NCBI GenBank assembly: GCA_018657955.1
Contig: JABHWD010000018.1
Span: forward strand, 1-64,000
DNA: 64,000 nt
From: Flavobacteriaceae bacterium
GTDB taxonomy: Bacteria; Bacteroidota; Bacteroidia; Flavobacteriales; Flavobacteriaceae
Direction of reading: 5' to 3'
This document shows, one piece after another, positions 53,488 to 60,158 of this stretch. Made by a program: the position numbers and the translations under genes. The notes under the pieces are model-generated. The model saw only the letters and a list, made by a program, of their open reading frames with translations. It was not told the DNA's origin and searched no databases. Numbering within the stretch: position 1 is the stretch's first letter; each line of letters begins with the position of its first letter.

Positions 53488-55515
53488 TTAATTGTTCTTA
53501 AAGACTTCTAATCCACAATTTAAAAACTCTAAATATTCATCTTCATTAGGGGTATAGCCTACAGGATTATTTATAATCTCATTAGAGTTAGGATCATAGA
53601 GAACATAGTATGGCTGAGAATTTGTCTTAAAATATTGTGCCTGAAAATAGGCCCATTTATGACCATAATTAATTAGCTTCCTTACACCTTGTCCTCTAGT
53701 TCTTGTTACTAATAATTGTTCATTCTCTGGCAATATTTTTTTATCATCTACATATAAAGAAATTAGCACATAGTTTTCTCTAATTACATTGTCTATTTTT
53801 TTTAATGGCCAAACATGCTCTTCCATTTTTCTACAATTCACACAAGCATATCCTGTGAAATCTAACAATATGGGCTTGTTATTTTTTTTAGCATATTCAA
53901 TCCCTGATTTTAAATCCTTAAAACAATCTAAATTATTTGGACATTCCTTAGGAGAGAAATAGCTATATCCTAAAGGTGGTGCAAGACCACTAAGCAAGCT
54001 CAATGCTCTATAGGATTGAGTTTCTTTATTATAAATTAAGCCAGATGCTAAATATATAGCAAACCCTAAAGATAGTAATGCGAATACTGCTCTTGTAATT
54101 GATAATTTTTTGAGTTTTATTTCATTTGGAAATTGGATTTTTCCAAAAAGATATATTGCCAATAAAAGAAAAATAATTAGCCATAAAACTAAAAATACTT
54201 CAATTTTAATTATCCCCCAATGGGCAACCAAATCAGCATTAGACAAAAACTTTAACGCTAAGGCAAGCTCTATAAATCCTAAGGAAACCTTTATAGTATT
54301 TAACCATCCTCCTGACTTTGGCAATGCTTCTAGCATATTTGGAAACATTGCAAATACTGCAAAAGGGAGCCCAAGTGCAAGTCCAAACCCTCCCATTCCA
54401 GCAGTTAATTCCCAAGCTCCTGAATCACTAGAAATTGAGCCTGCAAGTAATGATCCTAAAATTGGTCCTGTACAAGAAAAGGAAACAACAGCCAAAGTCA
54501 ATGCCATAAAAAATATTCCTATTATGCCTCCTACGGATTCTCTTTTTGTGGACCTGTCTACCCAAGATGAAGGGAGAGTTAATTCATAATATCCAAAGAA
54601 TGAAAATGCGAATAAAAGAAATATTATAAAAAAGAAAATGTTTAAGTATATGTTTGTTGAAATATCATTTAATATGTCAGGATTTACAGAATCTAATAAA
54701 TGAAATGGAATGCTTAATATTAAATATACTAATACAATAAATACCCCATATAGGATGGCATTAAAATAGCTATTCGTATTATCATTTTTTTTAGTAAAAA
54801 AACTTACTGTTAAAGGAATCATTGGAAAGACGCAGGGAGTAAGTAGTGCAAGTAATCCGCCAATAAAACCAAGCCCAAAAATACTATATAGGGTTCTAGC
54901 TGGACTGGATACTGTTGTGGTGTTTACTGATGCATTACCGCAACTAACTTTTGATTTTTTAATATCAGTAGGTAAAAATCCATATAGGATTAAATTATTT
55001 TTTTCTAAATTATTTTGATTTACTGTAGTATTCTCTTGAGTCTCATTCTCCAATATATTGTTTGAAAAATTAAATCTAAAGTCAATTATTTCAGGGGCTA
55101 GACATTGCGTATCATCACAAGTCATAAACTCAAAACTACCTGAAACAGGATTATCATAATTATTTATTTCAACCTTTTGTCTGAAAATTGCTTGGTTATA
55201 GAACTTAGACACTACCATGTCGAATACGAGGTCGTTTTGCGTTACCATATTAATAGAATCCTCAACTACCTCGTCAATTAAATTATAACTTGATGATTCT
55301 GAGAAAAAGAAAGTAGTTGGGATGGGACCTCCTTCATCAACTGATTGAGAATAAATTGCCCAATTGGGATCAATGTCTGCAGTGAATACTAGCTCATACT
55401 GATTTTCTGAAATTTGATTTTTTTCAAAATTCCAATGTACAGGCTCAAAAATTTGTGAAAACAAACATGTAGAACAAAAAGAAAATAGTACAAATAAAAT
55501 TCTACCTAGCTTCAT
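53488..55515 (-). CDS. dsbD: Thiol:disulfide interchange protein DsbD-like
   Basis: N-terminal domain, eight-TM core LLALLTPCVFPMIPLTVSFFTKK, C-terminal thioredoxin domain DFTGYACVNCRKMEE. Confidence 0.94.
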   Translation of the reverse strand: MKLGRILFVLFSFCSTCLFSQIFEPVHWNFEKNQISENQYELVFTADIDPNWAIYSQSVDEGGPIPTTFFFSESSSYNLIDEVVEDSINMVTQNDLVFDMVVSKFYNQAIFRQKVEINNYDNPVSGSFEFMTCDDTQCLAPEIIDFRFNFSNNILENETQENTTVNQNNLEKNNLILYGFLPTDIKKSKVSCGNASVNTTTVSSPARTLYSIFGLGFIGGLLALLTPCVFPMIPLTVSFFTKKNDNTNSYFNAILYGVFIVLVYLILSIPFHLLDSVNPDILNDISTNIYLNIFFFIIFLLFAFSFFGYYELTLPSSWVDRSTKRESVGGIIGIFFMALTLAVVSFSCTGPILGSLLAGSISSDSGAWELTAGMGGFGLALGLPFAVFAMFPNMLEALPKSGGWLNTIKVSLGFIELALALKFLSNADLVAHWGIIKIEVFLVLWLIIFLLLAIYLFGKIQFPNEIKLKKLSITRAVFALLSLGFAIYLASGLIYNKETQSYRALSLLSGLAPPLGYSYFSPKECPNNLDCFKDLKSGIEYAKKNNKPILLDFTGYACVNCRKMEEHVWPLKKIDNVIRENYVLISLYVDDKKILPENEQLLVTRTRGQGVRKLINYGHKWAYFQAQYFKTNSQPYYVLYDPNSNEIINNPVGYTPNEDEYLEFLNCGLEVFKNN

Positions 55516-55561: not shown

Positions 55562-55891
55562 TTAATATAATAAATGTTTTTTCTTATTAGTAGTCCACCC
55601 AGATTGGGATTTATAGTCGACAAAATAAATTTTCAAATCTGCCTGAGATTTATAATCAACAAAAAATACTTTGAAATCAGCTTGGCTTTTGTAATCTACA
55701 AAGAACCATAATCCTTCATTCCCCTTTGCTTGAGATTTATAGTCCACTTTATAGACTAAAAGATCAGCTTGACTTTTATATTCTACAACGAATATATTAA
55801 CGTCTGCTTGAGATTTGTACTCTACAGAATAAAAAGTTTGTGAATTTGCAGAAAAAAAACTAACCAAAAAAATAGTTAAAAACAATCTCAT
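55562..55891 (-). CDS. Small secreted YKSQ-repeat protein, probable 7(1) septoil-knot (DUF6150-like) family
   Basis: Signal peptide MRLFLTIFLVSFFSANSQ then six V(D/E)YKSQ(A/S) motifs at 13, 13, 16, 13, 13-residue spacing; GNEGLWFFVDYKSQ centre. Family name recalled, not searched. Confidence 0.7.
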   Translation of the reverse strand: MRLFLTIFLVSFFSANSQTFYSVEYKSQADVNIFVVEYKSQADLLVYKVDYKSQAKGNEGLWFFVDYKSQADFKVFFVDYKSQADLKIYFVDYKSQSGWTTNKKKHLLY

Positions 55892-55942
55892 CTCTCAATA
55901 TAATATTTTATAAATAAATTTTCACTATTAAATATTAATTTG

Positions 55943-56014
55943 TAGCCCCGGCAGGAATCGAACCTGCATCTAAAGTTTAGGAAACTTCTATTCTATCCAT
56001 TGAACTACGGGGCC
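55943..56014 (-). tRNA. tRNA-Arg (CCT anticodon)
   Basis: Reverse complement GGCCCCGTAGTTCAATGGATAGAATAGAAGTTTCCTAAACTTTAGATGCAGGTTCGATTCCTGCCGGGGCTA; anticodon loop TTCCTAA. Confidence 0.94.
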
Positions 56015-59426: not shown

Positions 59427-60158
59427 TTACTTTAGCGTTACTTTTCTAACTACAGGGTTAAAAGGCGAATCAATTAATTCCCCATTAGAATCTAACAATT
59501 CTAATTTGATGGTAACCTCTCCAATAGATAACCCCTCTATATAATACGGAGCCCATTCATCTATCATAAATTCGCTGTCATTAATAGTGGCGCGCACTTT
59601 ATTTCCTTCAGCAGAAATTTCTGTATTTACAAGATAAAAATCAAATAATAATTTTTTTATGTCATCTCCTTCATATACTCCCTTGGGTCTACTATAAAAC
59701 AAAAATTCAGATTCTAAATCATAAGGCTCATAGTCTTCAGGTCCAGAGGGGATTTGCATTAATGAAAATGCGTTTGGATTCTTGACAGATTCATGAAAAG
59801 ATCTTGATAAAAAGAATAAAATTAAATTATTTCCTTGTTTCAATTCTTTTGAAAAACCAGAAGTATAATGAGCAGAATAAGGTCCATTATTTACAATCAT
59901 ATGAATATGTTGACCTTTAGCAGAATTAGCTAAACCATTCTCAATTGCTCCTTCTGTTTGAAGCCCTAACTCATAATTCTCAACATTAAAACTAAAATTG
60001 TTATTTGAATCTTCATCTTCTGCAATTTGGGGAAGAGATAATATTGAATTAGAGAATTCAGGTGACCCCTCAAACTTTGTAATACTAATTGTGGATTGAT
60101 CTGAACATCCAACTATTAGAGACACTATAAGAATAAATGATATATTTTTCATAAACAT
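59427..60158 (-). CDS. Hypothetical lipoprotein
   Basis: LIVSLIVGC lipobox; GQHIHMIVNNGPYSAHYTSGF region. Confidence 0.75.
   Translation of the reverse strand: MFMKNISFILIVSLIVGCSDQSTISITKFEGSPEFSNSILSLPQIAEDEDSNNNFSFNVENYELGLQTEGAIENGLANSAKGQHIHMIVNNGPYSAHYTSGFSKELKQGNNLILFFLSRSFHESVKNPNAFSLMQIPSGPEDYEPYDLESEFLFYSRPKGVYEGDDIKKLLFDFYLVNTEISAEGNKVRATINDSEFMIDEWAPYYIEGLSIGEVTIKLELLDSNGELIDSPFNPVVRKVTLK

Follow-up and report, generated by a model that had tools for sequence, protein, structure and literature searches.

Q9PR55 (UU089.1) of Ureaplasma is a small beta-repeat protein that resists unfolding and proteolysis, and its knot is, to our knowledge, the most complex protein knot known. The 7_1 topology was predicted (PMC9278004) and confirmed by crystallography (PDB 8IWA; PMC13352647), and the knot is represented experimentally by the entries 8IWA, 8IWB, 8IWC, 8JRM and 8W68. 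A reported homologue of 112 amino acids, P73136, forms a related torus knot, 5_1, in AlphaFold (PMC9278004). The Caulobacteraceae Knotted Solenoid (3_1) is likewise a knotted, repeat-built beta protein of a restricted bacterial group, but its published description is that of a dimeric solenoid with a different fold (PMC13123833). The family to which our protein belongs has no name in Pfam other than "DUF6150" (PF19647), and no paper in the literature collection searched mentions it by name.

The locus lies within a stretch of 64,000 nucleotides from a Flavobacteriaceae genome (GCA_018657955.1, contig JABHWD010000018.1), hereafter the window. An intact coding sequence for 109 amino acids occupies positions 55562-55891 of its minus strand, with the ATG at 55891 and the stop codon at 55562-55564 (Table 1). 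The initial annotation, made from the letters alone, had described six V(D/E)YKSQ repeats with spacings of 13, 13, 16, 13 and 13 residues, and exactly these were recovered, with YKSQ starting at residues 25, 38, 51, 67, 80 and 93; when its residues were shuffled 100,000 times, no sequence contained more than two YKSQ motifs. The motif Ser codons read TCT, AGT, TCT, AGC, TCT and TCC in order, precisely as reported there. Since Tandem Repeats Finder detected no DNA repeat in the window, the YKSQ repeat is conserved as protein only, and on this point too the earlier description held, as it did for the short basic tail (TTNKKKHLLY, the C-terminal end). Membership in DUF6150, also proposed there, was borne out by a Pfam search (PF19647, E 7.3e-23, 80.8 bits against a gathering cut-off of 27), the match covering positions 4-98 of the 98 in the profile. 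The repeat spacing, the N-x-G-x-W linker and the (A)GW end of the family are all conserved, and the protein has no feature that distinguishes it within the Bacteroidota members of DUF6150. An NCBIfam search returned no family, and a Pfam match to Lysostaphin_N (20 bits against a cut-off of 60) was discarded as repeat noise.

Table 1. Coordinates of the DUF6150 gene, its parts and its neighbours in the window.
Feature	Position	Strand	Basis
Complete coding sequence, DUF6150 (PF19647) protein, 109 aa	55562-55891	-	Pfam match; conserved in 30 relatives
Signal-peptide-like segment, residues 1-17, putative cleavage between ANS and Q	55841-55891	-	Homologue comparison
Mature domain (predicted; cysteine-free, pI 8.7), residues 18-109, 92 aa	55565-55840	-	AlphaFold2; composition
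Turn 1 YKSQ, residues 25-28	55808-55819	-	Codon and motif count
Turn 2 YKSQ, residues 38-41	55769-55780	-	Codon and motif count
Turn 3 YKSQ, residues 51-54	55730-55741	-	Codon and motif count
Linker KGNEG, residues 56-60, dividing the repeats 3+3; then invariant W62	55712-55726	-	Alignments A1, A2
Turn 4 YKSQ, residues 67-70	55682-55693	-	Codon and motif count
Turn 5 YKSQ, residues 80-83	55643-55654	-	Codon and motif count
Turn 6 YKSQ, residues 93-96, then conserved GW	55604-55615	-	Codon and motif count; A2
DsbD-like protein, 675 aa, downstream neighbour, 46 bp after stop	53488-55515	-	Pfam; clade-level synteny only
tRNA-Arg (anticodon cct), 50 bp upstream	55942-56014	-	Neighbour only

Thirty relatives were retrieved from GTDB genomes, nearly all of them marine Bacteroidota MAGs and single cells, and further DUF6150 members were found in 13 of the 98 nearest genomes, 73 of 392 from the order, 70 of 389 from the class and 21 of 397 from a sample of the phylum; the window genome itself holds a single copy. 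Close relatives (61-91% identity) were checked for loss of the repeat frame, and they retained the frame and all six repeats, the exceptions being occasional substitutions within single motifs. Two alignments, one of close relatives with the leader included (A1) and one of 71 diverse, leaderless mature domains (A2), show D26, L27, W45 and W82 (mature numbering) as invariant and the repeat spacing as kept. Comparison of the window gene with its four closest orthologues gave a dN/dS of 0.054-0.095 for the mature domain and 0.14-0.23 for the leader; the gene is therefore under selection, and it is a real DUF6150 gene under strong purifying selection. Homologues were absent from the plasmid and phage searches and the viral fold library gave no match; two of the viral contigs searched contained matches. 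One genome carries two diverged DUF6150 genes in tandem, about 0.7 kb apart (L058/L063). A divergent branch with xxFAD repeats (L122, L124, L125, L128 and L129) carries cysteines at both ends of the domain (C-x2-G ... GC), which may form a disulfide closing the chain; if knotted, such a covalently closed form would deserve particular attention.

The N-terminus (MRLFLTIFLVSFFSANS, then Q) resembles a signal peptide. Across 117 homologues, a hydrophobic leader directly precedes the domain in 115, the residue at -1 being A, S or G, and Q occupies +1 in 114, a comparison that backs the signal peptide proposed earlier. The description of the protein as "an exported version" holds only in part: the leader is present, but the implication of a special version is misleading, because nearly all of the Bacteroidota members recovered carry one. 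The leaders thus support export as the norm for the Bacteroidota members retrieved. There are also members lacking an evident leader (L013, L123, L130, L135, L061 and L127). L061 and L127 have five DUF6150 repeats, then a Ser-rich stretch, then a hydrophobic segment and finally a bacterial SH3-like domain, an architecture suggesting that the module also serves in the cytosol or anchored to a membrane.

The structure was modeled with AlphaFold2. Using the close relatives only (A1), the pLDDT was 37; with A2 as input it rose to 95 with a pTM of 0.82, and all five models reached 88-95, which makes the prediction a confident one. Strands are predicted at mature positions 2-5, 14-18, 27-31, 44-47, 56-60 and 69-73, with a three-residue helical turn at every YKSQ motif joining them, and the model shows six strand-turn repeats laid out as three, a linker and three. 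An outer-membrane barrel was rejected, given that strands only about five residues long, in a chain of 92, would be too short. In a Foldseek search against the PDB, the top four matches were all to Q9PR55 (8iwa twice, 8iwb and 8jrm), the best with an E-value of 0.0099 and a probability of 0.85, which makes Q9PR55 the best local-structure match of the model. The superposition was poor (rmsd 10 Å, with a TM of 0.33-0.38 that is hardly above the chance matches lower in the same list), and the alignment comprised 73 columns, probably fewer than a full correct match to Q9PR55 would need. The low TM may mean that the global fold differs, or that the sequential alignment slipped between repeats of 13 residues in our protein and about 11 in Q9PR55 (VTSFPDxKVQF, seen within residues 21-80).

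A direct sequence match between the two proteins is absent. PDB sequence searches with the window protein, the alignments A1, A2 and A3, and the members L055, L061 and L013 all missed Q9PR55, comparing the close-family profile directly with Q9PR55 yielded nothing useful, and residues 21-80 of Q9PR55 had no match to DUF6150 when run against Pfam. A profile of divergent members (A4) had Q9PR55/8IWA as its sole PDB match (E 0.082). The intermediate is L123, one of these divergent members, a protein of 87 amino acids that matches DUF6150 in Pfam with an E-value of 1.2e-8 and aligns with the window family in the same register (hhalign probability 97.7, 74 columns). Its sole PDB match is Q9PR55 (8IWA, E 3.4e-6), with which it has SFPDxK(V/I/L)Q repeats in common. 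In phmmer, the match of L123 to Q9PR55 is composed of short repeat-shifted pieces, for which reason homology between DUF6150 and Q9PR55 is likely but not proven, and repeat convergence is possible. Through L123 and the local structure, the window protein is thus likely, though not proven, to be a distant relative of Q9PR55. A 7_1 knot in the window protein is plausible but unproven.

The same strand-turn units as in Q9PR55 could also build an unknotted closed beta-solenoid or prism, in which the two laps stack instead of interlacing. This would fit a global superposition on 8IWA that is poor despite the best local match; AlphaFold can disregard the barriers to chain crossing (PMC10672856), and topologies already differ among homologues, with 5_1 in P73136 and 7_1 in Q9PR55 (PMC9278004). 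Against it stand the sequence link that L123 provides to the knotted Q9PR55 and the layout of three strands, linker and strands, which can be read in both the window protein and Q9PR55. We regard the unknotted fold as unlikely, yet it is the most probable of the alternatives considered here.

As a DUF6150 member the window protein is ordinary, but the evolutionary pattern of its turns is unexpected. In the A2 alignment the six turns agree with one another within many species and differ between species: YKSQ in the window protein is replaced by YENQ (L108), YKSD (L040), WKSD (L105), YDYQ (L102), HxHQ (L071), NQAY (L100) and SKYD (L092), and mixed, possibly intermediate states are seen in L053 and L074. 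Identity at the Ser position is 0.92 within a protein, compared with 0.47 for the same repeat across species. Changes were placed on a tree built by parsimony from the 64 non-motif columns, so that the counts are approximate. The four turn positions change on shared branches and take the same new residue. On the same branch versus different branches, change to the same residue had a frequency of 0.86 versus 0.22 at the Ser position, 0.76 versus 0.13 at Gln, 0.74 versus 0.09 at Tyr and 0.48 versus 0.11 at the variable position. Same-branch changes are few at the neighboring Ala and Asp and at the strand positions, and the contrast of the turns with these control columns is large.

Such likeness among repeats could come from recent DNA duplication or gene conversion, the resemblance to Q9PR55 then being convergence without common descent. 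Turn codons in three lineages are indeed more alike than codon usage predicts (observed/expected 0.90/0.48 in L105, 0.73/0.45 in L099 and 0.78/0.52 in L102), and in these the repeats may have been homogenized more recently. The motif Ser codons are also identical in excess (0.456 observed, 0.336 expected) and share a codon family pairwise at a rate of 0.75, where 0.59 would be expected. For V, E, Y, K, Q and D, in contrast, repeats share codons at close to the near-random level given by codon usage, neither the strand residues nor the A and D within these units change in step, the repeat number is constant across the close family, and the window lacks a DNA repeat. For the window gene this explanation is already disfavored, and as a general account we consider it improbable. 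Concerted turn change with near-random silent codons in most lineages is most simply read as selection for six identical turns, although an old gene conversion followed by silent decay is possible. We propose that the turns change in concert because all six must match one another, either for packing in symmetric rings or for joint contact with one repetitive ligand; either would yield six identical turns. The wider proposition, a secreted torus-knotted family that would tie after crossing the membrane and whose identical turns are kept by selection, evolving in concert without gene conversion, we hold at somewhat less than even odds.

The genomic surroundings offer a further candidate role, in which the protein would work together with the DsbD-like thiol-disulfide protein encoded downstream, in envelope redox or folding. 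The dsbD-like gene, on the same strand and 46 bp downstream, is retained in the window's own genus and in the lineages sister to it. Other lineages have no dsbD neighbor, the mature DUF6150 protein has no cysteine, and a conserved operon partner was sought among relatives and none was found outside the dsbD clade. In the distant L118, a separate dsbD-like gene (69-1430) lies beside DUF6150 in convergent orientation, which may be coincidence; it is the only such case elsewhere. A partnership with DsbD is the least probable of the explanations weighed. Also in the window, positions 59427-60158 encode a protein of 243 aa that starts like a lipoprotein, matches no Pfam family at E 0.001 and is conserved in L016 and L025. 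Given that the DUF6150 protein of the window has no conserved catalytic set, cysteine, lipobox or fixed operon, a non-enzymatic and very stable binding or structural module of the envelope or secreted fraction is favored, tentatively and with low confidence.

Our preferred reading, to which we assign a probability of about 0.55, is that the gene encodes a real, selected and exported DUF6150 protein with a ring-like beta fold, probably torus-knotted, and, with low confidence, with the function outlined above. The protein would be translocated unfolded and its leader cleaved before Gln18, after which the 92-residue domain, now beyond the cytosol, would fold up as a compact beta structure in the form of a ring, with two laps of three repeats side by side. 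The backbone would then probably be torus-knotted as in Q9PR55, either 7_1 or a simpler torus knot. The in-step change of the six turns provides a clear natural case in which the repeats of a single chain appear to be co-selected, which is useful for the design of repeat proteins. If knotted, the family would comprise dozens of natural proteins, small and exported, that are related to the most complex knotted protein known, and it would be a system in which to ask whether such a knot, outside the cell and unaided by cytosolic chaperones, can tie spontaneously, and whether the knot type survives a change of repeat length from 11 to 13 residues.
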